Below, piece by piece: positions 27,305 through 59,371 of a stretch of 64,000 bases of DNA. This DNA comes from a virus. The notes beneath the pieces were generated by a model that was not told the DNA's origin, did not search any database, and was given only the letters and a program-made list of their open reading frames with translations. Location of the stretch: IMG/VR virus record IMGVR_UViG_3300042891_000377, positions 1-64,000 of that record; one strand, 5' to 3'. Positions within the stretch are counted from its first letter, which is position 1. Each line of letters opens with the position of its first letter. The translations under genes were made by a program, and so were the position numbers.

Positions 27305-28455
27305 TTGGTAAAAACGTAGACGCCTTCGAACTTTTCACGCCCTGCTACTTTATCATTACCAACACCTGGTCGTGTGTTTAACATCATTTTGATAGTTTGT
27401 TTATATTTGAAGCCTAACTTCTCAGCAGTTTCAATCCAACGCTCGCATACTTTAAATTCTGTTTTACCACCTATTTTATAGTCGGCAATATTTGTAGCAA
27501 ACACACCATCACTGTTTAATCCCTTGTGTATGTTCTGCATAGTAGGTACTACATAGCCCTCAAACCATTCATCTAACGTATTAAACTGATTCATGCACTG
27601 TGTGGGTTCGTCACTGTACTTCTCTAAGTTAAAGTATGGTGGACTACTAAAGGCTAGATCTACGTCCTCCGGTTGGTACACTTCGCTGACATTCTTATGC
27701 AACTGGCCTCGACGTCCTATACTATCATAGATACAGTCGTTTAGGTAGTGCAGGTATTCAATTGTTTCTGTATTAGGATCTACAGCAGTGTAGTTATAGC
27801 TCATGTTACTACCACTGATACCCAATAGCCTGCCGCCATATCCAGCACTGTAGTCATAGACGTTACCCCATAAGACAGGACAAAGATACTCAACAATAGC
27901 ACGAGCATTCTGCGGCTTAAAGTTTTGAATATTTTCTCCTGTGACTAATTCTAGTGCCCGTCTAAGAGCAGTAGGACTCGCAAGATTATCGCCAGTCCTA
28001 AACTCAAAACATATCCTAATAGCTCGACGAAGCTTAGTGTCATCTAAAAATCTATCCTTTAAACTGTTACTACCGCGTCCTTTGGGTTCAGCAGTCATCA
28101 TATTAGGAAAGCAAAAACGATTGATACTCTGTCCTTGATTGTTACCTAGACCAATAGTTGCTTGCCCATTCAATCCTTCAACTTCGTTGTAACCGGCATT
28201 CTTTAATGTACGTATAGCAGTGTACAGACCCTGTTCTGTGTAGTAGTTAATAGGCACAATGTTAACGGAGCGATAGATGTTGTAGACTTCTTCGATGACC
28301 TGCTCAGGTGCTTGCTCATATCGTTGTTTGGTGTATTCTGCCAACTGGTCCGCTACTGCTTCGTAGCAGGTAAACACATCTAACCCTTGTAATAGAGCGT
28401 GTGTATGGTAATTGTCTGTACCCCAGGTACTATGTAAGTTTGCTATTCCTATCAT
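27301..28455 (-). CDS. DNA methyltransferase (N6-A or N4-C type)
   Basis: 384 residues from ATG 28455, which overlaps the upstream stop and has GAGG eight bases before it. Motif I appears as VYDYSAGYGGRLLGIS (SAM-binding glycine loop), an acidic YTAVDPNTETIEYL follows, and motif IV is LAFSSPPYFNLEKYSD (SPPY). I-before-IV order and SPPY indicate an amino-methyltransferase acting on adenine N6 or cytosine N4. It may protect phage DNA from restriction. No restriction enzyme partner lies nearby. Family members occur in T4-like marine phages. Confidence 0.75.
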   Translation of the reverse strand: MIGIANLHSTWGTDNYHTHALLQGLDVFTCYEAVADQLAEYTKQRYEQAPEQVIEEVYNIYRSVNIVPINYYTEQGLYTAIRTLKNAGYNEVEGLNGQATIGLGNNQGQSINRFCFPNMMTAEPKGRGSNSLKDRFLDDTKLRRAIRICFEFRTGDNLASPTALRRALELVTGENIQNFKPQNARAIVEYLCPVLWGNVYDYSAGYGGRLLGISGSNMSYNYTAVDPNTETIEYLHYLNDCIYDSIGRRGQLHKNVSEVYQPEDVDLAFSSPPYFNLEKYSDEPTQCMNQFNTLDEWFEGYVVPTMQNIHKGLNSDGVFATNIADYKIGGKTEFKVCERWIETAEKLGFKYKQTIKMMLNTRPGVGNDKVAGREKFEGVYVFTK

Positions 28456-44060: not shown

Positions 44061-44558
44061 ATGATTAGGACACCTATCTGCAATCTTTTAATGGTCGCCA
44101 TGCTAATTGCCGGCGCCAATATCGTGCAGGCTGGGGAAATGGTCCATACCTTTAACAGTCCGGCATTCCACGGACAAGGATTTGGTATACATGCCCTTAC
44201 AATTAAGCAATTAGAAGATCAAGCCAAAGACAAGCGCGAATCTGCCGCAGAAGCTATACAGGCTAAAGCAGAATCTGCTGCACTTAATACTCCGCAGGCA
44301 CGCTTTATTGCTAATCTGGAATCGAGAATTTATAGTCAGTTGGCTAAACAACTAACTGATAGTATGTTTGGGGAAGGTGCTACTTGTACTACAGCAGGCA
44401 TAGTATGTGGTAATATTCCAAACTTAGGTGGTAACAGTATCCAGTGGAGTCTTGGAGCAGGTAGTGATAATGGTTTGATTATTATCACCATACAAGATTT
44501 AAGTAATGTTGACAATGTAACAACTATGAAAGTACCGGCGGGCTCATTTTATTTTTAA
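44061..44558 (+). CDS. csgF: Curli assembly factor CsgF-like
   Basis: 165 residues. An N-terminal signal peptide ends at IVQAGEM. The mature start, MVHTFNSPAFHGQGFGIHA, matches the CsgF segment (TF-x-NP-x-F-GG) that plugs into the CsgG channel. A helix (LESRIYSQLAKQLTDSMF) and a small beta domain follow. In bacteria CsgF links the CsgG pore to curlin nucleation. CsgF and CsgG homologues are known in some marine T4-like phages. csgG follows by nine bases. No Shine-Dalgarno sequence is evident. Confidence 0.8.
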   Translation: MIRTPICNLLMVAMLIAGANIVQAGEMVHTFNSPAFHGQGFGIHALTIKQLEDQAKDKRESAAEAIQAKAESAALNTPQARFIANLESRIYSQLAKQLTDSMFGEGATCTTAGIVCGNIPNLGGNSIQWSLGAGSDNGLIIITIQDLSNVDNVTTMKVPAGSFYF

Positions 44559-44567
44559 GGATGATAA

Positions 44568-45434
44568 ATGAATAAAACACTTATATCCTTATTAATAGCC
44601 GCGCTGTTAACAGGATGCGCTACAGGTAGTGTTATTAAAGAAAAAATAACAGGTGAGCAATTTGACAAGCCTGAGATAGTACGTGAAACATATTTTACTA
44701 AACCAGAGAATAAGGTATTACCTCCAAGTGGTGGGCCTATTCCTATAGCAGTATATAGTTTTCAGGATAAAACTGGACAGCGTAAGAATATACCTAACGT
44801 GGCTAGTTTTAGTACTGCGGTAACACAGGGTGCAGAAGCATATCTAATTGGTGCTCTACAAGACGTAGGCGACCAACGTTGGTTTACTGTGTTAGAGCGT
44901 GTGGGCTTAGATAACTTGATTAAAGAGCGTCAAATGATTCGTCAAATGCGTGAACAATATCAAGGACGTGACGCTAAGGCATTACCACCAATGATGTTTG
45001 CTGGTGTTATTGTAGAAGGAAGTGTAACAGGTTATGATAGTAATCTGCTTACAGGAGGTAGTGGTATGCGCATACTAGGTATCGGAGCACAAACGCAATA
45101 CCAAAGTGATACAGTTACAATTACTCTAAGAACAGTAAGCGTTAATACAGGTGAAGTATTAACAACTGTAACAGTTACTAAAACAGTGTTAAGCTACATG
45201 GACAAACTTGGTATACTAAAGTTTGTTGAAGAAGGCACAAAAGCCGTTGAAGCTGAAACTGGTATGAGTATCAATGAAAGTGTCAATAAAGCAACTAGCC
45301 TAGCAGTTAAGGCTGCTGTAATTGCTACTATTCGAGAAGGAGTGCGTAAAGGGCACTGGGCATTTAAGGAAGAGCCTAAGCCTGTAGTACAAACAGATGG
45401 TGTAAAATACCCTTTGTTAGAAACAAAAAAATAA
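44568..45434 (+). CDS. csgG: Curli secretion channel CsgG
   Basis: 288 residues, with a lipoprotein signal peptide and lipobox LLTGC (Cys at about residue 17). FQDKTGQRKN, TQGAEAYLIGALQDVGDQRWF, VLERVGLDNLIKERQMIRQ, VEGSVTGYDSN and VSVNTGEVLTTVTVTKTVLSY are characteristic of CsgG. It would form the nonameric outer-membrane pore, with CsgF at its mouth. AAGGATGAT precedes the ATG. Its likely cargo is encoded immediately downstream. Confidence 0.93.
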   Translation: MNKTLISLLIAALLTGCATGSVIKEKITGEQFDKPEIVRETYFTKPENKVLPPSGGPIPIAVYSFQDKTGQRKNIPNVASFSTAVTQGAEAYLIGALQDVGDQRWFTVLERVGLDNLIKERQMIRQMREQYQGRDAKALPPMMFAGVIVEGSVTGYDSNLLTGGSGMRILGIGAQTQYQSDTVTITLRTVSVNTGEVLTTVTVTKTVLSYMDKLGILKFVEEGTKAVEAETGMSINESVNKATSLAVKAAVIATIREGVRKGHWAFKEEPKPVVQTDGVKYPLLETKK

Positions 45435-45467
45435 TAATAGGATTTTAAAAATCCAAGGAGCAACACG

Positions 45468-46253
45468 ATGAAATATAATTTAAAAGCAACGGTAAGTATG
45501 ATGTTTTTAGCATTGTCAACATCGGTAATGGCCGCAGGCCCAACAGGTCCTAACCGTGTTTACATTGAACAATTGGGTAACACCAATAATGTTACAATTG
45601 AACAAGTTGGCGGCACTAACGATGTTGGTGGTACCGCTGGTAGTGTAGCAGTTGACGCAACAGGTCTAAGTACATTAACAGTAACAGCACCTAGTACAAG
45701 TAACTATGCTACAATTAACGGCAGTAATAACGGTGTAACTATAACGCAAACTGGTGACGATAATCAATCACAGTACAACATTAAAGGTGGCAATAACAGC
45801 TTTACAAGTACTCTAACTGGTGATGGTAATCAAAGTAAACTTACTATTGGTAATAGCACCACTAATGGTATGCGTAATACTGTTACTGAAACTGTTACAG
45901 GTAGTACTAATATGTTGATTACTAATATTGTTGGTAGTGACAACGCATTATCAACTACTATCACTGGTAGCAGTAACCAACTGACTACTGATGTAACTAC
46001 TAGTAATGCTGATATTACCAACACTATTAGTGGTAGTAACAATATATTTAATATACAACAACGAGATGCTGCAGGCAGTGCTGGCCATAGTTTAATCACA
46101 TCAACTACAGGTGATTATAACAGTATTACTACACAGCAACAAGGTACAAATGATACTACATTGAATATTAGTACAACTGGTGATCATAACACTATTACTA
46201 TACGTTCAAGTAGCAGTGCTATAGTAAGCCCAGTATCAGCAATAGTGAGATAG
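45468..46253 (+). CDS. Curlin-repeat (CsgA/CsgB-like) secreted protein
   Basis: 261 residues. The signal peptide ends SVMAAG. The mature part consists of curlin-type repeats: VYIEQLGNTNNVTIEQVGGTND, VTITQTGDDNQ, STLTGDGNQ, ITGSSNQ, QQQGTNDT, SLITSTTGDYN (Q-x-G-x-x-N units). Curlin repeats build amyloid beta-solenoids. It is low in cysteine and charge. Following csgF-csgG with AAGGAG before the ATG, it is the obvious substrate of the pore. Phage-encoded curlin would be a rare feature. Confidence 0.82.
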   Translation: MKYNLKATVSMMFLALSTSVMAAGPTGPNRVYIEQLGNTNNVTIEQVGGTNDVGGTAGSVAVDATGLSTLTVTAPSTSNYATINGSNNGVTITQTGDDNQSQYNIKGGNNSFTSTLTGDGNQSKLTIGNSTTNGMRNTVTETVTGSTNMLITNIVGSDNALSTTITGSSNQLTTDVTTSNADITNTISGSNNIFNIQQRDAAGSAGHSLITSTTGDYNSITTQQQGTNDTTLNISTTGDHNTITIRSSSSAIVSPVSAIVR

Positions 46254-46256
46254 TCA

Positions 46257-47348
46257 ATGAAACTATTGCTTGCTTTAGCGTGCTTAGTAGCAACTACTAA
46301 CGCATGGGCAGGCATTGGAACTGTAAGCGATACTAAAGGTACCGCTTGTTCAATAGAGCGTGCTAAACAGACCCTGCCTGGCAACAAAGGTGCGACCATA
46401 GAAAGTATGGATACCTATGTTACAGGCGGCTGTGTTAGCAATATCACATTTAAAGATGACACCAAAGTAAAAATAACAGAAAACAGTCGACTAATGATAG
46501 ACGACTTTGTTTACGATCCTAAAAAATCCGACGCAGGTAAACTAGCTCTTAAAGTAGGTATGGGCACAGTACGTTATGCCTCTGGACAAATTGCTAAAAA
46601 CAATCCACAAAAGGTAGATATTAAAACACCCACAGCTAGTATTGCTGTTCGCGGTACAGACTTTAACATGACTGTAGACGAAGCAGGACAGAGTTTAGTT
46701 ATTCTTGTGCCTAGCTGTAAAGATGGTGAAAAGATTAAAGAATACGAGCTAGAAGAAAACTTATGTAAAGTGGGCAAGATCGAAGTCAGCACACTGGCTG
46801 GTGTAGTTACCTTAGACAAAGCATTTGAAGGTACGTATGTAACCAGTGCTAACATGATGCCTAGTCCTCCAGCTATTATTAACACAATTGAAAGTAAGAT
46901 TGGTAACAGTCTTATTATCACTCGCCCACCCGAAATTGTCAAAGCTAGTAAAGAAGCAGGTAAAAGCAAACGTGATCTAGAACAAGAAGAACTAGAAGCT
47001 ATTCAAGCAAGTCAACTTGCTCAACGTATAGCTAAAGAAGGTGAAGCTAAAGCTGTAGTGTTGCCTTATAGCTTTGACAGTGGTAAATCAGGATGTAATC
47101 CGGCAATCAATGTCTGCGTTAAATGGGAAAATCCGGATGGTGAAAGCATACAGGCCAAAGGTCGAGGTATAGCGTTTCGTCAAAGTGAAGATCACTATGC
47201 AGAAGTTAAAACACAGGGCTACGAAAGTAATACGTCAATTGAAATAATTCACGATGATAATATTGCCTCAGCTACAATTGGTTCGGGCGATCCAGGTGGC
47301 AATGTAGTGCGTATCAAACAGAATTCTGGAGTGTTAAGACGACAATGA
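46257..47348 (+). CDS. Secreted FecR-domain protein
   Basis: 363 residues, three bases after the curlin gene. Signal peptide ends TNAWAGIG. FecR-domain pattern: GTVSDTKGTACSIERAKQTLP, DTYVTGGCVSNITFKDDTKVKI, ENSRLMIDDFVYDP, VGMGTVRYASGQIAK, VDIKTPTASIAVRGTDF. The C-terminal half has cysteines (SGCNPAINVCVKW) and a small beta domain. FecR domains act outside the cytoplasm as scaffolds or stabilisers. Here it probably belongs to the curli-like system rather than iron sensing. Confidence 0.8.
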   Translation: MKLLLALACLVATTNAWAGIGTVSDTKGTACSIERAKQTLPGNKGATIESMDTYVTGGCVSNITFKDDTKVKITENSRLMIDDFVYDPKKSDAGKLALKVGMGTVRYASGQIAKNNPQKVDIKTPTASIAVRGTDFNMTVDEAGQSLVILVPSCKDGEKIKEYELEENLCKVGKIEVSTLAGVVTLDKAFEGTYVTSANMMPSPPAIINTIESKIGNSLIITRPPEIVKASKEAGKSKRDLEQEELEAIQASQLAQRIAKEGEAKAVVLPYSFDSGKSGCNPAINVCVKWENPDGESIQAKGRGIAFRQSEDHYAEVKTQGYESNTSIEIIHDDNIASATIGSGDPGGNVVRIKQNSGVLRRQ

Positions 47349-48472
47349 AACGGCTCCTTGTAATCTTATTATTAGTTTGCTCCAATACCTGGGCCGCAGG
47401 ACTTGCTGGACTTAATTATCAGAACTATGCCGCAGGTGGTGCTATGCCATCATATACGCAAGATGCTAATGGAAACATCACTAATCGCACACTACTATCA
47501 ACTGGAACTGTGAATACGGTGGGATTAACTACTAGTAGTGGAGCAGGCTTGCCTACTCGCAGTGATGGATTTATAGTTCGTTTCTATGGTTACATCAATA
47601 TAGAAACAGCAGGTACATATTACTTTGGCGGGCAAGCAGACGACGGTATCCGTATTAAGATTAATAACATATCTGTGGTTAATAGTTGGATAGAATCTGG
47701 CGGCGCATTTAGAGAAGGCAGCATTACTTTGTCAGCAGGAGTTGTTCCGGTAGAAGTAATGTATTACGAGAACGGCGGTGGACAAATGGTTAACTTCCAA
47801 TGGTTTATGAACGGCTATTGGCAGATTGTACCTACAGCGTCGATAGCTACAGATACTACCTATTGGGCGCCTGCGGCTCCTGTACTATGTTGCGGCGGCA
47901 GTTCGTCAAGTTTTAATGCTAGTCCATCTAATGTAACAAAAGTACAGTCATACGCCACAAGGAATACCAATGACAGTCAGGTGTACATAGACCAAATTGG
48001 TAATGATAACGAGATCACAGTTAACCAAACAGGTACTAAAAATAACTACACAGAATACAATAGTAGTGGTAGTTTCAATACCGTTAATATCTCACAAACT
48101 GGTAATAGTTCAACAACAGCAAACTACGTAGAACTAAATGTCAACGGTGATAGTAATATAGTAAATCTAACGCAGCAGAGTACAGGTGGTGCCAAGGGTA
48201 TCTACGCTACAGTTAACGATGACAATAATAATGTAACAGTCTTACAGAAAGACGGTGGTAATGCTTACTTAAACTTAAACCTAAGTGGCGGTAATAAAAC
48301 TGTAGACATAACGCAACAAGGCAGTGCTGCACACATGGCTGACATTACTCTAACTGGAGCAGGTGCTAGAAGTTTAAACTTAAATCAGCAAGGTAGCACA
48401 CAACAGTTTTACAGTATTAATAGTAGTTGCGCTAGTGCCTGTCAGGCAATAACAGTAATACAAGGACAATAA
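47345..48472 (+). CDS. PA14-like plus curlin-repeat secreted protein
   Basis: 375 residues, start overlapping the fecR stop (ATGA). Signal peptide ends NTWAAG. A PA14-type carbohydrate-binding domain covers about residues 20-170 (GFIVRFYGYINIETAGTYYFG, ADDGIRIKINN, VPVEVMYYENGGG). A Cys-Ser linker follows, then curlin-type repeats (VYIDQIGNDNEITVNQTG, VNISQTGN, VDITQQG, LNLNQQG) and a C-terminal CASAC. This looks like a glycan-binding tip joined to an amyloid-type stem. Confidence 0.8.
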   Translation: MKRLLVILLLVCSNTWAAGLAGLNYQNYAAGGAMPSYTQDANGNITNRTLLSTGTVNTVGLTTSSGAGLPTRSDGFIVRFYGYINIETAGTYYFGGQADDGIRIKINNISVVNSWIESGGAFREGSITLSAGVVPVEVMYYENGGGQMVNFQWFMNGYWQIVPTASIATDTTYWAPAAPVLCCGGSSSSFNASPSNVTKVQSYATRNTNDSQVYIDQIGNDNEITVNQTGTKNNYTEYNSSGSFNTVNISQTGNSSTTANYVELNVNGDSNIVNLTQQSTGGAKGIYATVNDDNNNVTVLQKDGGNAYLNLNLSGGNKTVDITQQGSAAHMADITLTGAGARSLNLNQQGSTQQFYSINSSCASACQAITVIQGQ

Positions 48473-49859: not shown

Positions 49860-49886
49860 AAAAAGCCCACTCCGGTGGGCTTTTTT
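49860..49886 (+). terminator. Rho-independent terminator
   Basis: AAAAGCCCAC / GTGGGCTTTT stem with a TCCG loop and T tail. Confidence 0.92.
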
Positions 49887-49912
49887 ACGGAGATAACATC
49901 ATTTGGTTAAAA

Positions 49913-50012: not shown

Positions 50013-50020
50013 TATAAATA
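50013..50020 (+). promoter_or_regulatory. T4-late-type promoter TATAAATA of xoxF
   Basis: Perfect TATAAATA; predicted +1 is 50026, the first base of an inverted repeat. Confidence 0.65.
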
Positions 50021-50025
50021 AAGTT

Positions 50026-50047
50026 GTTATTAAGGGTCCTTAGTAAC
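50026..50047 (+). other. 5'-end hairpin of the xoxF late message
   Basis: GTTATTAAGG / CCTTAGTAAC arms (one mismatch) with a two-base centre. It starts exactly at the predicted late +1. The half-site TAGTAAC recurs upstream of pqqA. Confidence 0.6.
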
Positions 50048-50117
50048 ATTTTCAAAACTTGTGGTCCGCGGCATACAGCAACCGGCACGTTTTTATTTAA
50101 ACACAAGGGAGATGTAA

Positions 50118-51983
50118 ATGAAGTTAAAATCAATTAAAGTAGCATTAAGTTTAGTTTTAGCATTACCAGCAGTAGCTTTCGCAGCAGCTGACCAAGAAAA
50201 AGCAATGAAAGACGCTAACAACTGGGTTGGCCCACGTGGTCAATACGACAACCAAGGTTACAGTGCATTAGCACAAGTTAACAAAGGTAACGTTAAAGGC
50301 CTTAAAGCTGCTTGGACATTCGCTACCGGTGTAAACCGTGGCCACGAAGGTTCACCAGTAGTTGTTGGTAACATGATGTACGTTCACACAGCGTTCCCAA
50401 ACAACGTTTACGCTCTTGACTTAAACGACAATCAAAAAATCGTTTGGTCTTACTTCCCAAAACAAGATCCATCAGTACAAGCTGTATTGTGCTGCGATAA
50501 CGTTTCACGTGGTCTTGGTTACGGCGACGGTAAAATCTACCTACAACAAAACGATGGTAACTTGGTTGCTTTAGACGCTAAAACTGGTGCTAAAGTATGG
50601 TCAACTTTAATCAACGATCCAAAAGTCGGTGCTACTAACACTAATGCTCCACACGTGATCAAAGATAAAGTACTGACAGGTTGTTCAGGTGCTGAATTTG
50701 GTGTTCGTTGCTTTATCGCAGCTTACAACTTAAAAGACGGTTCATTAGCATGGAAAGCATACTCAACAGGCCCTGATGCTGAAATGTTAATCGGCGAAGG
50801 CTTCAACAAAGATACACCTGAGTACAGCGCACTATCAGTTTACCAAGACGTAAACGGTGGTAACAAATTAGGTGGTTCTTTCAACACTATCCCTAATGAC
50901 AAATTAGTAATTGGTCAAAAAGAGTTAGGCACACGTACATGGTTGAAACCACAAGCAGTTAAAGATGGTTGGCAACATGGTGGTGGCTCTGTATGGGGCT
51001 GGTGGCCGTATGATGCTCGTACAAACTTGGTTTACTACGGAACAGGTAACCCATCAGTTTGGAACCCAGATGTACGTCCAGGCGACAACAAATGGTCTAT
51101 GACTGTTTTCGCTCGTGACTTAGACACTGGCGTTGCAAAATGGGGTATGCAAATGACTCCACACGATGAGTGGGATTACGATGGTATTAACGAAGTAATC
51201 TTGTTCGACAAAGGTGGTAAAACATACGCATGGCACCATGACCGTAACGGTTTTGCTTACACTTGGAATGCTGGTAACGGTAAATTAGTTGCTGCAGAAA
51301 AAGTACACCCATTCGTTAACTGGGCAACTGGTGTTGATTTGAAAACAGGCGTGCCTAACAAATTGGCTACTGCTTCAACTCACCAAGATTACAATGCAAA
51401 AGGCGTTTGTCCAGCTGCTTTGGGTACTAAAGACCAACAACCAGCTGCGTACTCACCAAAAACTGGTTTAATTTACACTCCATTGAACCACGTATGTATG
51501 ACATACGAGCCAGTTGAGTCTAAATACGTTGCAGGTCAACCATGGGTTGGTGCTACATTGACCATGTTCCCAGGTCCAGACGGTGTAATGGGTGGTTTCG
51601 GTGCTTACGATCCAATGACAAACAAAAAAGTTTGGTACAACAAAGAGAAATTCTCTGCTTGGGGTGGTGCTTTAACAACTGCTTCAAACTTAGTATTCTT
51701 CGGTACTTTAGATCGTTGGTTTAAAGCTGTAGATGCATCATCAGGTAAAGAACTATGGAAATTCCAAGTTGGTTCTGGCGTGATTGGTAATGCATTCACA
51801 TACGGTCACAAAGGTAAACAACACGTTGGCGTGCTATCAGGTATCGGTGGCTGGGCTGGTGTGGCGATGAACCTTGGTATGACTAACCCAACAGACGCTT
51901 TAGGTGCTGCTGGTGGTTATGCTGAATTAACAAAATACAACGCGGCTCCTGGCGGCGGTGCATTAACAGTATTCAGTCTTTAA
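50118..51983 (+). CDS. xoxF: Lanthanide-dependent methanol dehydrogenase XoxF
   Basis: 621 residues. Signal peptide ends VAFAAAD, so it is periplasmic. An eight-bladed PQQ propeller is indicated by repeated W-motif segments. The vicinal disulfide C125-C126 (VLCCDNVSRG) that stacks on PQQ is present. The active site PHDEWDYDGINE gives catalytic Asp353 and an extra Asp355, the residue that marks the lanthanide (Xox) rather than the calcium (Mxa) type. It oxidises methanol to formaldehyde and passes electrons to a cytochrome c. AAGGGAGATG precedes the ATG. The gene is intact and bounded by its own promoters and terminator. It is strong evidence for a methylotroph host. Confidence 0.96.
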   Translation: MKLKSIKVALSLVLALPAVAFAAADQEKAMKDANNWVGPRGQYDNQGYSALAQVNKGNVKGLKAAWTFATGVNRGHEGSPVVVGNMMYVHTAFPNNVYALDLNDNQKIVWSYFPKQDPSVQAVLCCDNVSRGLGYGDGKIYLQQNDGNLVALDAKTGAKVWSTLINDPKVGATNTNAPHVIKDKVLTGCSGAEFGVRCFIAAYNLKDGSLAWKAYSTGPDAEMLIGEGFNKDTPEYSALSVYQDVNGGNKLGGSFNTIPNDKLVIGQKELGTRTWLKPQAVKDGWQHGGGSVWGWWPYDARTNLVYYGTGNPSVWNPDVRPGDNKWSMTVFARDLDTGVAKWGMQMTPHDEWDYDGINEVILFDKGGKTYAWHHDRNGFAYTWNAGNGKLVAAEKVHPFVNWATGVDLKTGVPNKLATASTHQDYNAKGVCPAALGTKDQQPAAYSPKTGLIYTPLNHVCMTYEPVESKYVAGQPWVGATLTMFPGPDGVMGGFGAYDPMTNKKVWYNKEKFSAWGGALTTASNLVFFGTLDRWFKAVDASSGKELWKFQVGSGVIGNAFTYGHKGKQHVGVLSGIGGWAGVAMNLGMTNPTDALGAAGGYAELTKYNAAPGGGALTVFSL

Positions 51984-51997
51984 TCTGTAGTTAACCT

Positions 51998-52024
51998 AAA
52001 AAGCCCACTTCGGTGGGCTTTTTT
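51998..52024 (+). terminator. Rho-independent terminator after xoxF
   Basis: AAAAGCCCAC / GTGGGCTTTT stem with a TTCG loop and T tail, nearly the same as the porin terminator at 49860. Confidence 0.92.
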
Positions 52025-52032
52025 ACCTCTGC

Positions 52033-52040
52033 AATAAATA
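52033..52040 (+). promoter_or_regulatory. T4-late-type promoter AATAAATA, +1 at a start codon
   Basis: AATAAATA, five bases, ATG 52046. Leaderless micro-ORF predicted. Confidence 0.5.
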
Positions 52041-52045
52041 CTTTT

Positions 52046-52144
52046 ATGTATACTTGGCGCGAAACGTTTATCTTTATTGAAATCATTCTATTCTTCACAC
52101 TCGTGTTTTCTATCCCCTACATAGAACAACTAATCCAACCGTAA
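52046..52144 (+). CDS. 32-aa single-pass membrane micro-protein
   Basis: Sequence MYTWRETFIFIEIILFFTLV followed by FSIPYIEQLIQP: one hydrophobic helix. The ATG coincides with the predicted late +1. It lies between xoxF and plcP. Too short to assign; late expression and the membrane segment fit a small membrane effector. Confidence 0.45.
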   Translation: MYTWRETFIFIEIILFFTLVFSIPYIEQLIQP

Positions 52145-52160
52145 CAAAAATTTAATCTGT

Positions 52161-52178
52161 TTGTAACACTACTGTAAT
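52161..52178 (+). promoter_or_regulatory. Pho-box-like PhoB site
   Basis: TTGTAACACTACTGTAAT: two 7-base half-sites (TTGTAAC, CTGTAAT) with a 4-base spacer and 11-bp period, the layout of the PhoB box. It lies 23 bases before plcP of the plcP-pstS-oprP operon. Confidence 0.65.
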
Positions 52179-52187
52179 CTTTGTGTG

Positions 52188-52195
52188 TTTAAATA
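52188..52195 (+). promoter_or_regulatory. Late-type word TTTAAATA, +1 at the plcP start
   Basis: TTTAAATA, five bases, ATG 52201. It sits about one helical turn downstream of the Pho-box-like site, so it might equally be the -10 region of a PhoB-activated promoter. Confidence 0.4.
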
Positions 52196-52200
52196 TACAT

Positions 52201-52950
52201 ATGACCACAAGATATAAGACCATTTGTATATCCGACTTTCACCTTGGCACTAAAGATGCTAAGGCTGATCTATTAAACAATTTCCTTAAAAATCACACCT
52301 GCGAAAATTTATTTTTAGTTGGTGATATTATTGACGGTTGGAAGATACAGCAGAACAAGTGGAAGTGGCATCAAAGCCATACTAATGTTATTCGTCGTAT
52401 ATTAGGTTATAGCAAGCGAGGTTGTAATGTAACCTATGTAACTGGCAATCATGACGAGTTTCTTCGCCCGTTGGTAAGTCATGGATTCAATCTCGGCAAT
52501 ATTCGTATGGTAAATCAAGCAGAATATCGCAGTATAGATGGCGAGTTGTTTCTAATTACCCACGGCGACTTATTTGACGGTATTACTAGATTAGCACCGT
52601 GGTTAGGATTTTTAGGTGATAAAGCATATGATGTAGCTTTATGGTTTAATAACTATTTTAACTTTGCTCGTAGAAAATTAGGATTTGGTTATTGGAGTTT
52701 AAGCAAGTTTTTAAAAGCTCGCGTTAAGAAAGCAATGGGTTTTGTATTTAAGTTTGAACTTAACATGTTACAGTATGCTCAAAAACAAGGGTATGATGGT
52801 GTTATCTGCGGACATATACACACACCCGAAATTAAACACATCAACGGCATGATTTATATGAACGACGGTGATTGGGTTGAAAGTTGTAGTGCCCTAGTAG
52901 AAGATTATGAAGGACGCTGGGATATTATATATTGGAATGAAATTAAATAG
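52201..52950 (+). CDS. plcP: PlcP-type metallophosphoesterase (phospholipid remodelling phospholipase C)
   Basis: 249 residues from ATG 52201. Metallophosphoesterase motifs: ISDFHLGTKDA (DxH), LVGDIIDGWKI (GD), VTGNHDEF (GNHD), ITHGDLFDG and VICGHIHTPEI (GHxH). YWSLSKFLKARVKKAMGFV and YMNDGDWVESCSALVEDYEG match the PlcP branch of LpxH-like proteins, which cleaves phospholipid headgroups under phosphate starvation in marine and soil bacteria. The alternative is LpxH-type UDP-diacylglucosamine hydrolase. The Pho-box-like site and pstS/oprP neighbours strongly favour PlcP. Confidence 0.82.
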   Translation: MTTRYKTICISDFHLGTKDAKADLLNNFLKNHTCENLFLVGDIIDGWKIQQNKWKWHQSHTNVIRRILGYSKRGCNVTYVTGNHDEFLRPLVSHGFNLGNIRMVNQAEYRSIDGELFLITHGDLFDGITRLAPWLGFLGDKAYDVALWFNNYFNFARRKLGFGYWSLSKFLKARVKKAMGFVFKFELNMLQYAQKQGYDGVICGHIHTPEIKHINGMIYMNDGDWVESCSALVEDYEGRWDIIYWNEIK

Positions 52951-52962
52951 GAGAGAATGTAA

Positions 52963-53964
52963 ATGACGATTCAACAGATTAAAACGATAATGTATTATGT
53001 AGTAATAGCATTTGCTGTATCAATGGCTGGATTAAAACAAGTTCAGGCAGCAGACAAAATGGTCAAAATAGACGGCAGTTCGACAGTCTATCCAATATCA
53101 GAAGCAGTAGCAGAAGAATTTCAAAAGAAAACAGGGGTTAAGGTAACAGTAGGTGAAAGTGGTACAGGTGGCGGCTTTAAAAAGTTCTGTCGCAGTGAAA
53201 CTGACATCAGCGATGCTAGTCGTCCTATTTCACAAAAAGAGATGGATGCTTGTAAAGAAGCAGGTGTACAGTACATCGAATTGCCCGTTGCCTACGATGC
53301 TCTAACTGTAGTAGTAAACAGCAAAAATGGCTGGGTTAAATCATTTACAGTTGAAGAATTGAAAAAAATATGGGCACCGGGTAGTTCAGTTAAAAACTGG
53401 AATCAAGTAAATCCAGCTTATCCAAATCAACCACTACAATTATTTGGCCCAGGTACAGCAAGTGGTACATTTGACTACTTCACCGAAGCTATCAATGGTA
53501 AGGCAAAATCCAGTCGCAGCGACTACACACCAAGTGAAGATGACAATGTTCTAGTAACTGGTGTAGCAGGTAATTCGGGGGCACTAGCTTACTTTGGTTA
53601 TGCTTATTACGAAGAAAACAAAGATAAATTACGTGCCATTCCTATCATTGCTAAGGGCTCAACAACGCCAGTATTACCAAGTCCAGAAGCAGTTATGAAT
53701 GGTACCTATCAACCATTAAGCCGCCCACTGTTTATCTATGTAAATGCAACAGCGGCTGCGTTTAGACCAGAAGTAAAAGCATTTGTAAATTTCTATTTAG
53801 AAAATGCACCTAAGTTAGTAAAAGAAGTAAAGTATGTTCCATTACCAGCAGACGACTATGCGGCAGTAACAGAGCATTTCAAAGCACTAAAACCAGGTAC
53901 AGGGTTTAACGGTACTCCAGAAGTAGGCATTAAAATTAAAGACTTAATTAAACGAATCAAATAA
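52963..53964 (+). CDS. pstS: Periplasmic phosphate-binding protein PstS
   Basis: 333 residues with AGGAGA upstream. The signal peptide ends [27 protein letters not shown] and [26 protein letters not shown] are the phosphate-binding loops; [17 protein letters not shown] and [16 protein letters not shown] complete the site. It captures phosphate for the host PstCAB transporter, which is not encoded here. PstS is a known auxiliary gene of T4-like cyanophages under PhoB control; plcP upstream and the porin downstream form one operon. Confidence 0.95.
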
Positions 53965-53973
53965 GGAAACATT

Positions 53974-55383
53974 ATGACATTAAAAAATATTATCACAGGT
54001 TTATTCATAGCATCAGCATTAATTGCTACACCAGTATATGCAGACAGCACTAACGACATCGTGAATGCGTTGGTGATGAAAGGCGTGTTAACCGAAGAAG
54101 AAGGTGCCTTAATTAACAAAGGTCGTACTGGAGAAACAAGCGCAGTTAAAAAAGAAAAAGATACCACTGTACATGCGGCTAGCAAAATGAATATACGTGG
54201 CTACTTACAGATACGAAATACTACTATGCTCAGTGGTGACGAAGGAGTTAACCTTTGGTCAGATCGATCTGTAGGTGACAAAAATTCACTCGCTGACCAA
54301 GACAAAAACTTCCTAATTCGTCGTGCTCGTATTATTATATCAGGTTCGGCAGGTGATCGTTTAGATTACTATATTCAACCCGACTTTGCTAGTACAGCAG
54401 GTACCACAGGTAACGTTGCGCAACTACGTGATGCTTATGGTGACGTGAATCTAACCAAAGATAAAGTGCACCGTGTGCGTGTGGGTCAAAGTAAAGTACC
54501 ATATGGATTTGAAAACTTACAATCTTCACAAAATCGTTTAGCACTTGATCGTGCCGACGCATTTAACAGCGCAGTACGTGATGAGCGTGATTTAGGTGCG
54601 TTCTACTACTACACACCAGATAATGTACAAAAGTTGTTTAAAGAAATACAAGACAGTGGTTTAAAACATTCAGGTAACTACGGTATGTTTGGCGTTGGTA
54701 TATATAACGGCCAGGGTGCTAACCAACAAGATCGTAACGATAATTATCATACAGTAGCACGTTTTACTTACCCTTGGAAAACAGAAAGCGGACAAATATA
54801 CGAAGCTGGTATACAAGGTTATACAGGCAAGTATGTAAGAACAGGCAGTGCGTATAGAAGAAACATGGGCAACAACGTTTACGCAACTAAAACACCGACA
54901 TTAGAACCGGGCAACACAACTGGATTTAAAGACGAACGTATGGGTGTAAGTTTTATGATGTACCCACAACCGTTTGGTATACAAGGTGAGTGGAACTGGG
55001 GTAAAACTCCTGGCTTAGATACTGCTGCTAGTACTGATGGTATTATCAAAGAAACTAACTTGAACGGTGGTTACATTCAAACTATGTATAAAATTGATAA
55101 CTTTAAAGTATTAGATACCAATGGTACACTAATTCCATTTGTTAGATGGCAATACTTTGATGGTGCGTCAAAAGCAGAAACTAACTCACCAATGAACAAG
55201 GTTAACGATTGGGAGATGGGTGCTGAATGGCAAATCGCGCCAGAGGTTGAACTTGTGGCTTACTATCATATGATGAATCGTAGCAACCTAGTAACAGGAG
55301 CATCGGCTACTACACTAGTAAAGCAGGACTATGCTAACTTTAAAGCAGATGCCCTGCGTGTTCAACTACAGTATAACTTTTAG
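53974..55383 (+). CDS. Phosphate-selective porin OprO/OprP-like
   Basis: 469 residues, nine bases after pstS with AAGGAA before the ATG. Signal peptide ends VYADST. NDIVNALVMKGVLTEEEGA is the N-terminal helix of the OprP family; the barrel has FLIRRARIIISG, DYYIQPDFASTAG, LRDAYGDVNL, RVGQSKVPYGFENLQSS and an aromatic end QLQYNF. It would carry phosphate or polyphosphate across the outer membrane to PstS. The trio covers membrane lipid, outer membrane and periplasm. Confidence 0.85.
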   Translation: MTLKNIITGLFIASALIATPVYADSTNDIVNALVMKGVLTEEEGALINKGRTGETSAVKKEKDTTVHAASKMNIRGYLQIRNTTMLSGDEGVNLWSDRSVGDKNSLADQDKNFLIRRARIIISGSAGDRLDYYIQPDFASTAGTTGNVAQLRDAYGDVNLTKDKVHRVRVGQSKVPYGFENLQSSQNRLALDRADAFNSAVRDERDLGAFYYYTPDNVQKLFKEIQDSGLKHSGNYGMFGVGIYNGQGANQQDRNDNYHTVARFTYPWKTESGQIYEAGIQGYTGKYVRTGSAYRRNMGNNVYATKTPTLEPGNTTGFKDERMGVSFMMYPQPFGIQGEWNWGKTPGLDTAASTDGIIKETNLNGGYIQTMYKIDNFKVLDTNGTLIPFVRWQYFDGASKAETNSPMNKVNDWEMGAEWQIAPEVELVAYYHMMNRSNLVTGASATTLVKQDYANFKADALRVQLQYNF

Positions 55384-55391
55384 GAAACATT

Positions 55392-55481
55392 ATGTTTGAA
55401 CTTTTTATAGATGCTGTAAAAGATATTAGCGGTATATTGGCGATAATGGCGGCTATTGGTATATGGTCATTTTTACTATAG
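55392..55481 (+). CDS. 29-aa single-pass membrane micro-protein
   Basis: ATG 55392 after TAGGAA, nine bases behind the porin stop. Sequence MFELFIDAVKDISGILAIMA then AIGIWSFLL: one amphipathic or membrane helix. It may be a real small membrane protein of the phosphate operon. Confidence 0.45.
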   Translation: MFELFIDAVKDISGILAIMAAIGIWSFLL

Positions 55482-55540
55482 ATTGCAAGAAAATTACTGG
55501 TCTTTAATGATTTTACGTATGTTATTTAGGTCAAAACGGT

Positions 55541-55567
55541 GTTACTATATGTATAAGTACTAGTAAC
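55541..55567 (+). other. Inverted repeat upstream of pqqA
   Basis: GTTACTA / TAGTAAC arms, 13-base centre containing GTA / TAC. The right arm and the following CAAAAC..TTGTGGT are shared with the xoxF leader (50041-50065). Could be an operator or mRNA hairpin. Confidence 0.5.
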
Positions 55568-55614
55568 AACAAAACATGTTGTGGTACTTTTAATAATTTA
55601 CTAGGAGAAATACT

Positions 55615-55686
55615 ATGTGGACTAAACCAGCAGCCACTGAAATGCGTTTCGGTTTTGAAGTAACTCTTTACGTAATGAACCGTTAA
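55615..55686 (+). CDS. pqqA: PQQ precursor peptide PqqA
   Basis: 23 residues, the canonical PqqA length, with AGGAG eight bases before the ATG. It begins MWTKPAATEMR and continues FGFEVTLY, with Glu15 and Tyr19 in the E-x3-Y spacing that PqqE cross-links to make pyrroloquinoline quinone. The MW-x-KP start and R-x-G-x-EVT-x-Y core are family hallmarks. PQQ is the cofactor of XoxF, encoded 3.6 kb upstream. No pqqB-E is in the window, so host enzymes must process the peptide. Followed by a terminator. Confidence 0.93.
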   Translation: MWTKPAATEMRFGFEVTLYVMNR

Positions 55687-55708
55687 TTTTAAGGTCCATA
55701 ACGTAAAC

Positions 55709-55732
55709 AAAGCCTCTTAGGAGGCTTTTTTA
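55709..55732 (+). terminator. Rho-independent terminator after pqqA
   Basis: AAAGCCTC / GAGGCTTT stem with a TTAG loop and T tail. It overlaps the end of the minus-strand HNH gene. Confidence 0.9.
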
Positions 55733-56181
55733 TTGGCCCGTGTTTCTGCCAAGGATGCTCTAATTTTTGCTCGTGTTTCTTCACTAACGACATGCCCTTT
55801 ACGACTTGCGGCCCAATTAGCCATATGTTCTTCAGACTTCTTTTTGCCCTTCATTGCTTCAGAACGTTTTTTATTGGCTTCTTCTAACTTACCACTTGCT
55901 CGTTGTCTTTCTGTTCTAAGTTTACAACTTTCTCTGAGTTTTGCTTTAGATTCCTCAGACATGGGTTTCTTGCTGCCTTTACTCCTTGCCATAAACATTG
56001 CCTCATCTTGTCCCATTTGCCCAGACAATGCTTGCCAAGCACAATAGTCTTGCCAATTGCCGTGTTGTTCGTACAGCAAGCGATGCGCTTCTGCGTGAGC
56101 TTCTACGGTAAGTTCTATTAGGTTACTAGGATCGTCGGTGCCGCCTAGGTATTGAGGTAAGATGTGATGTATATGTTTCAT
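55717..56181 (-). CDS. HNH homing endonuclease with NUMOD-like repeats
   Basis: 154 residues from the minus-strand ATG at 56181. The N-terminus KHIHHILPQYLGGTDDPSNL followed by IELTVEAHAEAHRLLYE is the HNH zinc/metal nuclease core of T4-like phage homing enzymes. The C-terminus has NUMOD3-type DNA-binding repeats (SEESKAKLRES, SEEHMANWAASRKGH, SEETRAKIRAS). Such freestanding enzymes spread by cutting phages that lack them and dragging flanking DNA along. It sits directly behind pqqA in the opposite direction. Confidence 0.85.
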   Translation of the reverse strand: MKHIHHILPQYLGGTDDPSNLIELTVEAHAEAHRLLYEQHGNWQDYCAWQALSGQMGQDEAMFMARSKGSKKPMSEESKAKLRESCKLRTERQRASGKLEEANKKRSEAMKGKKKSEEHMANWAASRKGHVVSEETRAKIRASLAETRANKKAS

Positions 56182-56250
56182 ACAGTTATTTATTATTGTT
56201 ACTTCATAACCTATAAACAAAACTTATTGCGACCATTTAAAAATACAATT

Positions 56251-56278
56251 AAAAAAACCTATTAATCAGGCTTTTTTT
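56251..56278. terminator. Possible bidirectional AT-rich hairpin
   Basis: AAAAAA-ACCT / AGGC-TTTTTT around ATTAATC. Weak, but it has T runs on both strands. Confidence 0.35.
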
Positions 56279-56335
56279 ATTAAAAATTTTAATATATAAT
56301 ATATGTACATTAACAATTTAATCAAGGGGAAGTAA

Positions 56336-56902
56336 ATGAGTTTAATCGGAAAACAAGTAGAAGCATTTAAAGCACAAGCATACCGTCAAGGTCAGTTTGT
56401 AGAAGTATCAGAGCAAGATTTAAAAGGTCGTTGGAGTATAGTATTCTTTTACCCAGCAGACTTTACATTCGTCTGCCCAACAGAATTAGCAGACTTACAA
56501 GACGTATACGCTAGTGACTTTAAAGCAATGGGGGTAGAAGTATACAGCGTAAGCACAGACACACACTTTGTACACAAAGCATGGGCAGATGCTACAGACA
56601 CAATCCGTAACATCACCTACACAATGATTGGCGATGCTAACCATCAGTTAGCTCGACAATTTGGTGTGCTAATTGAAAGCGAAGGACTAGCTGATCGCGG
56701 TACGTTTGTTATTGATCCAGATGGTGTTGTACAGATCATTGAGATCAATCCAGGGGGTGTTGGCCGTGACGCAAAAGAACTATTGCGTAAAGTTAAAGCG
56801 GCAAAATACACTAGAGAGCATCCGGGTGAAGTATGCCCGGCTAAATGGCAAGAAGGAAGTGCTACCTTAGCACCAAGTTTGGATTTAGTAGGTAAACTAT
56901 AA
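56336..56902 (+). CDS. ahpC: Peroxiredoxin AhpC (typical 2-Cys)
   Basis: 188 residues with AAGGGGAAG upstream. [17 protein letters not shown] contains the peroxidatic Cys47, and [11 protein letters not shown] the resolving Cys, followed by the C-terminal helix. Full AhpC length. It reduces peroxides using host AhpF or a thioredoxin system; no AhpF is encoded here. It would protect the Fe-S and radical enzymes carried by this phage from oxidative stress (inference). Followed by its own terminator. Confidence 0.94.
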
Positions 56903-56907
56903 AAACA

Positions 56908-56933
56908 AAAAGCCCCAATTAAGGGGCTTTTTT
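56908..56933. terminator. Bidirectional Rho-independent terminator
   Basis: AAAAGCCCC / GGGGCTTTT stem with an AATTAA loop, between the convergent ahpC and cytochrome c genes. Confidence 0.9.
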
Positions 56934-56934
56934 A

Positions 56935-57231
56935 TCACTGAGTTAACACCCATTTAACTAGCGTTTTAATATCCTCGTCTTTGATCTGTGGACTCATTGG
57001 CGGCATTGGGATAGGACCCCATACTCCACTACCACCTGCTTTAACCTTTGCTACTAGTTTAGCCTCTACATCTTGACCTTTGTATTTCTTAGCAACGTCT
57101 TTATACGCTGGACCTAAGATCTTATGATCAACTGCGTGACAAGCTAAACACCCACTTTTCTGTGCCAATGCTTGGTTAGCATTTGCTGTGATGCAACTAC
57201 CTAATAATAATACTGCTAAAATAGTTTTCAT
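56935..57231 (-). CDS. Class I cytochrome c (c551/c552 type)
   Basis: 98 residues on the minus strand with AAAGG before the ATG. Signal peptide ends TANAN. Heme site SGCLACHAV (CxxCH, Cys28-Cys31-His32), then LGPAYKDVAKKYKG, and the Met ligand in WGPIPMPPM. This is the compact soluble cytochrome of the c551/c5 type, an electron carrier to terminal oxidase. It is not the larger XoxG/cL type. In this context it may accept electrons from the XoxF pathway in the periplasm (inference). Confidence 0.92.
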   Translation of the reverse strand: MKTILAVLLLGSCITANANQALAQKSGCLACHAVDHKILGPAYKDVAKKYKGQDVEAKLVAKVKAGGSGVWGPIPMPPMSPQIKDEDIKTLVKWVLTQ

Positions 57232-57330
57232 TTTAGACCTTTCATAAAAGTTAACTTACAATGTATTTAACGCCGATAAACTATATCTATTTATTTTTGG
57301 TAGAATTTTGATTGACGAAAATTCCAAAAG

Positions 57331-57338
57331 AGTAAATA
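57331..57338 (+). promoter_or_regulatory. Late-type word AGTAAATA before the cyclase
   Basis: AGTAAATA eight bases before ATG 57347; TTGACG lies at 57312. Confidence 0.3.
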
Positions 57339-57346
57339 ATAGTACT

Positions 57347-59371
57347 ATGATGAAAAATAAACTTAAAAAACTCCTAGTCAGTCCGTGGACTGCGTTAATT
57401 ACATTAGCTGTTATTGTAGTAGTAATCCTACAAGGACCTACATTCGTAGAGTCGGTTAGACTTAGATACTTTGACACACTGATTAGTGGCAAGGCTCCTA
57501 CAGAAAATAATATCTATACTGTAAACATAGATGAAGCAACATTAGACAAGTATGGGCAATGGCCATTTAAGCGTGACAAGTACGCAGACCTAATTGATGA
57601 CCTGTACAAACATGGCGCTGGCCTAGTTGTTTGGACTGTTATGATGCCAGAAGCAGACCGTCAAGGTGGCGATGCGGCCTTGGCATTAGAGTTAGAGGAC
57701 CATCCAGTTATCCTTACTAACATGCCCAGTGAAAAGTCTAAGAACATCCCACGTAAACCAGGCAGTGCTGTTATTGGTGACGAGTACAGCGACACAATTA
57801 TCACCTATCCGGGTATCATTGCTAACATTCCAGAACTAGAACGTAATGCCGCTGGTGTTGGTATTGCTAACACATTCCCAGAGGTAGATGGTGTTAATCG
57901 TCGACTACCATTGTTCGTTGGTTATGACAATAACGTATATCCAAGTATTCCGTTAGAAGTATTACGTGTTATATCGCAAGACTCAACATTCCAAGTTAAA
58001 CTAAATGAATTTGGTGTTGAGAAAATGCGCATACCAAGTTTCCGTCCTATCAGCACAGATAGCTTAGGTCGTATCTGGGTAGACTGGAGTCAAAAGTCAA
58101 CACAGGTATCAGCAGTCAACTTGCCTACAGACTTTGGTGGTGCTGTGGTTATTGTAGGCCTAAGTGCCGCAGGTTTAGCTAACCCAGTGCCAACTAGTAT
58201 CGGTAGCGTATGGCCACAAGATATGCAGGCCGCTGTTATTGGTACGTTAGCTAACAACGTAAACATTGAACGTCCATTCTGGGCAGACAATGCTGAACTG
58301 TTGGCTCTTATTGTTATCTCACTTATTATTTTAATCTTGAGCCGTTGGGTATATGTTGGCCTAGGAGTTGGCGTTGTATTGCTTGCGGCAATTACACCTG
58401 CAACAATGTATGCGTTTGCGCACTATAACTTCTTGTTTGATGCCATTGTGCCCACAGCAGGCGGTGTACTGGTTATGCTACACGCTTATGGTGTTAAGTT
58501 TATTAGCGAGTTCTTACAGAAACAACAGATCAAGAAACAATTTGGTAGCTACGTTAACCCTACTATTGTTGAACGCTTACAAAAGAATCCAGAGCTGATT
58601 AAACTAGGCGGCGAACGTAAAGAACTTTCAATTGTTATGACTGACCTACGTGGCTTCACAACACTTGGCGAATCGTTTGGTGATGATGTAGAAGGACTTA
58701 CACAGATCATGAATGACTACATGACAGCATTGAGTATTCCTGTGCTAAAGAATGATGGTACTTTAATTAAGTTTATCGGTGATGCTAGTTTACACGTACA
58801 CGGTGCTCCGTTGGATGATGCTAATCACGCTAAGACTGCGGTGCGTACTGCACTCGAAATGATCAAAGCCATTGAAGACTTTAACGTAGAACTTGTTGCT
58901 AGTGGCCGGCCACCGGTTGGTATGGGTGCTGGTGTTAACACAGGTGAAACCTTAATTGGTAACATTGGTGCTAAGAGCAAGTTTGGTTATGACGTTCTAG
59001 GTGACAGTGTAAGTACTGCGGCACGTTTAGAAGGACAAACTAAGTCATATGGTGTGTTACTAATCATCGGTCCTAAGACTGCTGAATACTGTAAAGATGA
59101 CTTCCCTGTAGTATGGTTAGACAACATTGCCGTTAAAGGTAAAACTATTGGCTTAGATATCTACACAGTTGGTCGTACTAATCTTTATATGCACGAGGAG
59201 TATCGTAAAGAATATACTCGTGGTAATTGGGGCAAGGCTATTGTATGGGCTAAAAAATTAGTCAACAACGATGATGTTGATATTAAACATTACTATGAAC
59301 TAATGATTGAACGTATGGAACAGGGTGTTCCTGCAAACTGGGATGGCACTTATCACGCCACTTCAAAATAA
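57347..59371 (+). CDS. CHASE2-sensor class III nucleotide cyclase
   Basis: 674 residues from ATG 57347 (ATG 57350 equally possible). A membrane segment (about residues 10-28) is followed by a periplasmic CHASE2 domain (about 30-310, RYFDTLISGKAPT, NIYTVNIDEATLDKYGQWPF), three membrane helices (about 320-395) and a class III cyclase domain (about 420-590). Metal-binding Asp residues lie in IVMTDLRGFT and KFIGDAS; FGYDVLGDSVSTAARLEGQ carries the catalytic Arg, but the usual Asn four residues before it is Ser. The product is probably cAMP. Phage-encoded signalling of this size is unusual. Confidence 0.85.
   Translation: MMKNKLKKLLVSPWTALITLAVIVVVILQGPTFVESVRLRYFDTLISGKAPTENNIYTVNIDEATLDKYGQWPFKRDKYADLIDDLYKHGAGLVVWTVMMPEADRQGGDAALALELEDHPVILTNMPSEKSKNIPRKPGSAVIGDEYSDTIITYPGIIANIPELERNAAGVGIANTFPEVDGVNRRLPLFVGYDNNVYPSIPLEVLRVISQDSTFQVKLNEFGVEKMRIPSFRPISTDSLGRIWVDWSQKSTQVSAVNLPTDFGGAVVIVGLSAAGLANPVPTSIGSVWPQDMQAAVIGTLANNVNIERPFWADNAELLALIVISLIILILSRWVYVGLGVGVVLLAAITPATMYAFAHYNFLFDAIVPTAGGVLVMLHAYGVKFISEFLQKQQIKKQFGSYVNPTIVERLQKNPELIKLGGERKELSIVMTDLRGFTTLGESFGDDVEGLTQIMNDYMTALSIPVLKNDGTLIKFIGDASLHVHGAPLDDANHAKTAVRTALEMIKAIEDFNVELVASGRPPVGMGAGVNTGETLIGNIGAKSKFGYDVLGDSVSTAARLEGQTKSYGVLLIIGPKTAEYCKDDFPVVWLDNIAVKGKTIGLDIYTVGRTNLYMHEEYRKEYTRGNWGKAIVWAKKLVNNDDVDIKHYYELMIERMEQGVPANWDGTYHATSK

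Follow-up and report, generated by a model that had tools for sequence, protein, structure and literature searches.

The window analysed here (the whole stretch of DNA, 64,000 nt, taken from a linear viral record of 104,171 bp) carries an intact gene for a lanthanide-type PQQ methanol dehydrogenase (xoxF) of host origin and, downstream, a free-standing gene for the PQQ precursor peptide (pqqA). The explanation preferred is that a large Methylophilaceae phage tops up XoxF apo-enzyme and PqqA and thereby sustains methanol oxidation, translation being gated by a leader RNA; it is considered probable, with appreciable room for doubt. From its sequence, the phage xoxF can be regarded as an auxiliary metabolic gene: it came from a host, is established in phage genomes and is subject to selection. 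The pairing of enzyme and PqqA in a phage was already published in 2020: Coutinho et al. (PMC7678222) described methanol dehydrogenase and PqqA in T4-like Methylophilaceae viruses and proposed the same functional idea. Their Lake Baikal viruses VP_139 and VP_266 are of this T4-like kind and have methanol dehydrogenase, VP_266 also PqqA, but the enzyme was not named XoxF or lanthanide-type, and the leader was not discussed. Added here are at least four entries of xoxF into phages, the widespread free-standing pqqA and the conserved viral leader RNA; the open-access literature searched gave no account of the leader, nor one that treats PqqA as a gene general to methylophages.

The record contains genes for a DnaB-type helicase, primase, ribonucleotide reductase, and virion structural and baseplate-like proteins, together with many host-like genes; its T4-like assignment is by gene content. 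The following features of the window are referred to below:

49860–49886 (+), left cassette edge, a terminator-like hairpin that follows the porin gene upstream and matches the hairpin behind xoxF at 26 of 27 bases
50013–50020 (+), TATAAATA, weakly supported likeness to a T4 late promoter
50026–50047 (+), upstream hairpin of the leader (GTTATTAAGG/CCTTAGTAAC), from predicted leader folds
50058–50063 (+), CUUGUG, 5' arm of the proposed RBS-hiding helix; its GUG is the first three bases of the core
50061–50088 (+), conserved leader core GUGGUCCGCGG-[loop]-CAACCGGCAC, common to viral xoxF and marine-phage pqqA
50102–50111 (+), CACAAGGGAG, with the 3' arm CACAAG overlapping the xoxF Shine–Dalgarno (SD) sequence
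50118–51983 (+), xoxF, lanthanide-type PQQ methanol dehydrogenase, 621 aa, full length
51998–52024 (+), terminator-like hairpin after xoxF; right cassette edge
55615–55686 (+), pqqA, free-standing PQQ precursor peptide, 23 aa, canonical PqqA
55709–55731 (+), terminator-like hairpin after pqqA
56336–56902 (+), ahpC-type peroxiredoxin; relatives near pqqA/xoxF in several other phages (identity 32–97%)
56935–57231 (−), c551/c552-type cytochrome c, 98 aa, CLACH haem site

XoxF requires a lanthanide and acts on methanol. The xoxF product has a signal-peptide-like N-terminus, belongs to the methanol/ethanol-type PQQ alcohol dehydrogenase family (TIGR03075, 613.5 bits, cut-off 480; PF01011) and aligns over its full length with the solved XoxF structures 6oc5 and 6dam. 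The catalytic Asp and the extra Asp two residues on are present (DEWDYDG, from residue 350), as are the CC pair (from residue 124) and the ligand residues Glu (GAEFGVR, from 191) and Asn (GTGNPS, from 308); Ca-type chains in the same structure comparison have Ala at the second Asp position. No inactivating change was seen in the comparison with solved XoxF and Ca-type chains, and the claim of the first-pass annotation that the window holds an intact lanthanide-type xoxF is thus borne out by the full length, the extra Asp, the CC pair, the Glu and the Asn. GenBank phage records gave no XoxF, only Gcd-like matches of ca. 26% in Acinetobacter phage bins.

The best host match to the window XoxF is that of a Methylotenera oryzisoli MAG (94% protein identity). 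IQ-TREE quick tree (89 proteins): the window XoxF groups with viral L003 (99, starred) and then with the Methylotenera MAG (SH-aLRT 97, starred), so that it lies nested within Methylophilaceae; the remaining viral XoxF stand among freshwater Methylopumilus/Methylotenera-like, KB13-like and HTCC2181-like OM43 hosts. Five changes of the viral label are needed on this tree, four of them forced by starred branches, which indicates at least four entries of xoxF into phages, with different host clades as sources. Pairs that involve viral copies gave dN/dS of 0.03–0.19, indicative of purifying selection. In sequence, active-site residues and clade the phage XoxF is like that of Methylophilaceae hosts; the phage gene differs in having no xoxJ/xoxG beside it and a different leader.

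That xoxF was picked up as cargo by accident, or was joined to the phage sequence from host DNA in assembly, might be suspected from the 94% identity to the Methylotenera MAG and from the close relatives that have no xoxF, and is judged very improbable. Against it, the same type of xoxF was found with phage flanks on contigs from other metagenomes (L003, 99.6% over 456 aa; L092, 100% over the 45 aa covered), where it lies beside pqqA and phage genes in differing local arrangements; the gene was captured repeatedly, its viral copies have a virus-specific leader, and two phage copies are separated by dS of ca. 0.10 with dN/dS of 0.03. The first-pass annotation had held that its reading would fail if xoxF fell outside the host clade with inactivating changes or if the segment were a phage–host chimera: the gene is not outside the host clade and carries no such change, and the separate assemblies with phage flanks oppose a chimera.

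The extent of the captured cassette can be read from relatives. In L102 and L103 the match stops at window position 49887 and restarts at 52146, the intervening stretch in these relatives being shorter than 300 bases, and the xoxF cassette is thus missing there; no xoxF match was found in the 94–219 kb records of the close relatives, which at this locus keep pqqA, ahpC and the cytochrome. The near-identical terminators at both edges suggest that the cassette may have entered by recombination at terminators. In another record (G017; L442, 7944–10784) the gene directly 3' of the phage xoxF codes for the alpha subunit of formate dehydrogenase (TIGR01591, 885 bits, cut-off 666); by its family assignment it represents a second methanol-dissimilation step on the same phage as xoxF.

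A complete PqqA had been claimed 3.6 kb downstream of xoxF, and it was found at 55615–55686: TIGR02107, 38.4 bits (cut-off 20); aggag Shine–Dalgarno sequence in front; the conserved Glu-x3-Tyr pair, which is joined by PqqE, present as EVTLY. Among the eight viral contigs first found with related xoxF, six have pqqA on the examined stretch, and the linkage of the two genes across phages can be taken to exceed chance. PqqA was found in at least 120 viral contigs (degenerate DNA pattern); no relatives of host pqqB–E were found in the examined viral loci (the pqqB query being a fragment). The viral peptide is near-identical to the 23-aa PqqA of Methylophilaceae, in which orphan pqqA genes are multi-copy, and copies are free-standing in both; the viral gene differs in being virus-borne with no pqqB–E found alongside. 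The host genomes G001–G007 gave 2–11 scattered pqqA matches each, in agreement with published copy numbers: 3–12 pqqA with typically one pqqBCDE (PMC4109929). For Methylovorus, PqqA availability has been described as rate-determining (PMC11317620).

tblastn of GenBank phages gave PqqA in nine isolate records (Venkman, P19250A, MEP301, MEP401, MEP402 and four Melnitz), the number of isolated methylophages being uncertain, with further methylophage names in the taxonomy that are absent among the PqqA matches. A Pseudomonas-type PqqA query recovered the same records, two Acinetobacter phage metagenome bins included. pqqA was unlabelled in all five isolate regions inspected: Venkman, P19250A, MEP301 and MEP402 have no annotation at the site, and the Melnitz gene is covered by an opposite-strand hypothetical protein. 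Methylopumilus phage P19250A, said in PMC7678222 to carry none of these genes, has an unannotated pqqA at 28085–28153 (−) of KX815270.1; searches of three methylophage isolate papers for PqqA gave no mention of it. A small gene beside pqqA in the window (55717–56181, −) is weakly similar to IscB in the C-terminal portion of the latter (22.8 bits, well short of the cut-off) and occurs in some relatives only.

The c551-type cytochrome of the earlier claim was confirmed on the minus strand by its CLACH haem site and by its nearest solved chains, cytochromes c551/c552. It is unlike the cytochromes beside host xoxF and is not a XoxG/cytochrome cL; relatives of host xoxJ/xoxG were not found in the viral loci examined. 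The same phage group has this cytochrome both with and without xoxF. It may help electron flow to the terminal oxidase and is no evidence for a XoxF-specific carrier. Co-acquisition of the three genes as one module is not supported, the relatives without the xoxF cassette having kept pqqA, ahpC and the cytochrome; of the proposed supply of enzyme, cofactor precursor and electron carrier, the lanthanide-type XoxF and its linkage to PqqA are supported, and the cytochrome as carrier for XoxF is not. A more distant XoxF with leader (record G598; L439, 4210–7553) is flanked by two c-type cytochromes, one of them weakly like a methanol-metabolism cytochrome; a weak DoxX-like protein is also nearby.

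The leader consists of the upstream hairpin, GUGGUCCGCGG, a variable hairpin/loop, (A)CAACCGGCAC and then the Shine–Dalgarno sequence. In IMG/VR, pattern scans placed the core before viral xoxF in 12 contigs, one of them the window, with 9 distinct leaders, and before pqqA in 31 marine phage contigs, with 16 distinct leaders, the peptides after the marine cores being above the Pfam and NCBIfam PqqA cut-offs in the examples tested; in four further contigs (L353, L366, L443, L424) the core precedes a gene for a secreted, autotransporter-like protein after a phage curli cassette, and neither PqqA nor PQQ alcohol dehydrogenase was found in these records. The scans cover close variants of the core only, and the counts from one degenerate-pattern scan are lower bounds; most further degenerate-pattern matches were GC-rich coding sequence and were set aside. 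A covariance model of the core (R1, 36 positions) matched the window leader at 50058–50092 (45.7 bits) and gave one core copy per viral record. The leader L002, which MAFFT had misplaced in the first core alignment, was left out of R1 and used as a test; it scored 22.2 bits (E 0.0055).

Viral xoxF genes from separate captures have this leader in common and host copies are without it; host-derived regulation was rejected for the same absence of the core from host xoxF leaders. The core was found in none of 187 Methylophilaceae genomes (exact pattern) and in none of 399 Pseudomonadota genomes (R1); large bacterial genome sets were searched with stricter filters, with viral records as positive controls. 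One bacterial candidate (1 of the 399 genomes in the order) was discarded as lying inside an 892-aa coding gene. The leader matched no Rfam family at gathering score, and neither Rfam nor the open-access literature searched yielded a PQQ riboswitch. In the marine phages L297, L302, L440 and L441 leader and pqqA have an alkane monooxygenase of AlkB-like type as their neighbour (PDB 8sbb, E 9.5e-30); no PQQ alcohol dehydrogenase was found in the records searched. A T4 late promoter at 50013 was also considered; TATAAATA fits, yet the window shows no enrichment of this motif.

The start of the core is predicted to pair with the SD region in 7 of the 9 xoxF leaders. Six have CUUGUG/CACAAG and L002 has UUUAGAG/CUCUAAA, a compensatory change of both sides; when arms are swapped between the two classes, the pairing is lost. 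Sequestration by the same arm in L008 and L277 was tried and does not fit. Most conserved core pairs are invariant and so offer no covariation by which the predicted core fold could be judged, and the window leader folds no better than shuffles (z −0.63). The closing pairs of the core (GUG/CAC) would compete with the SD-hiding helix (CUUGUG/CACAAG), and the leader looks like a translational switch, which is the reading proposed. Translational SD-sequestering riboswitches likewise have a conserved 5' leader core with closing pairs that compete with an SD-hiding helix (predicted here); the phage leader differs from the known ones in having no Rfam family and no known ligand, in its occurrence so far in viral contigs only and in one kind of client gene with no evident PQQ link.

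As to what such a switch would respond to, PQQ would be the most economical link between xoxF and pqqA, and a new virus-specific riboswitch class for PQQ (or PQQ plus lanthanide), by which XoxF would be switched on and PqqA elsewhere controlled, is conceivable but rather unlikely. The class of leaders before secreted proteins makes an operator for a phage protein at least as likely as PQQ sensing. Such a translational operator would bind a phage or host RNA-binding protein and set expression timing, with XoxF and PqqA merely among its clients and no metabolite sensed; it has a substantial chance, somewhat short of even, of being correct. It would agree with a core seen in viral contigs and in none of the bacterial genomes sampled, and with a third client that is a secreted autotransporter-like protein of no evident PQQ link, in records that have neither PqqA nor PQQ alcohol dehydrogenase. 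It is harder to reconcile with the single core copy per viral record and with two of the three kinds of client gene being PQQ-linked and otherwise unrelated (xoxF, pqqA); more client genes would also be expected, though the scans reach no further than near variants of the core. A non-PQQ signal relevant to the same genes (lanthanide ion, methanol or formaldehyde) is improbable: a lanthanide is required by XoxF and methanol is its substrate, and the AlkB-like monooxygenase adjoining pqqA in marine leader phages would make alcohols common to both settings, but pqqA is tied to PQQ and not to any alcohol or metal.

Under the preferred explanation, that of a phage topping up XoxF and PqqA, the captured Methylotenera xoxF would be a self-contained cassette (leader, gene and terminator) accompanied by the free-standing pqqA, and the virus-specific structured leader would gate translation of the phage xoxF. 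During infection the phage would replenish what is consumed, namely XoxF apo-enzyme and PqqA. The sequence itself shows intact genes of host origin, repeated capture, purifying selection, a conserved leader and a possible SD pairing in seven of nine xoxF leaders; expression of the genes, activity of the enzyme, a benefit to the phage and the signal to which the leader would answer are inferred. PqqA would be consumed one-for-one per PQQ whereas PqqB–E turn over, so that the peptide would be the economical gene to carry. The catalytic PqqB–E, XoxG/XoxJ, the lanthanide and the respiratory chain would come from the host; since xoxJ and xoxG were not found in the viral loci, activity of the phage XoxF would depend on it.

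A viral RNA placed on both a PQQ enzyme and a PQQ precursor makes the question of a PQQ riboswitch testable with an RNA of ca. 100 nt. The nine isolate records suggest that it is the consumable PqqA, and not PQQ enzymes, that phages of methanol oxidisers commonly bring; phage pqqA is easily missed because it has only 23 codons, and viral contributions to methanol oxidation are probably undercounted.

Other genes of the window: 44061–48472, a curli cassette (CsgF, CsgG, curlin-repeat proteins, a FecR-like protein and a PA14/curlin protein); 52963–55383, a PstS-type phosphate-binding protein that adjoins a phosphate-selective porin O/P; 57308–59371, a protein with CHASE2 and adenylate cyclase, conserved within this phage group.
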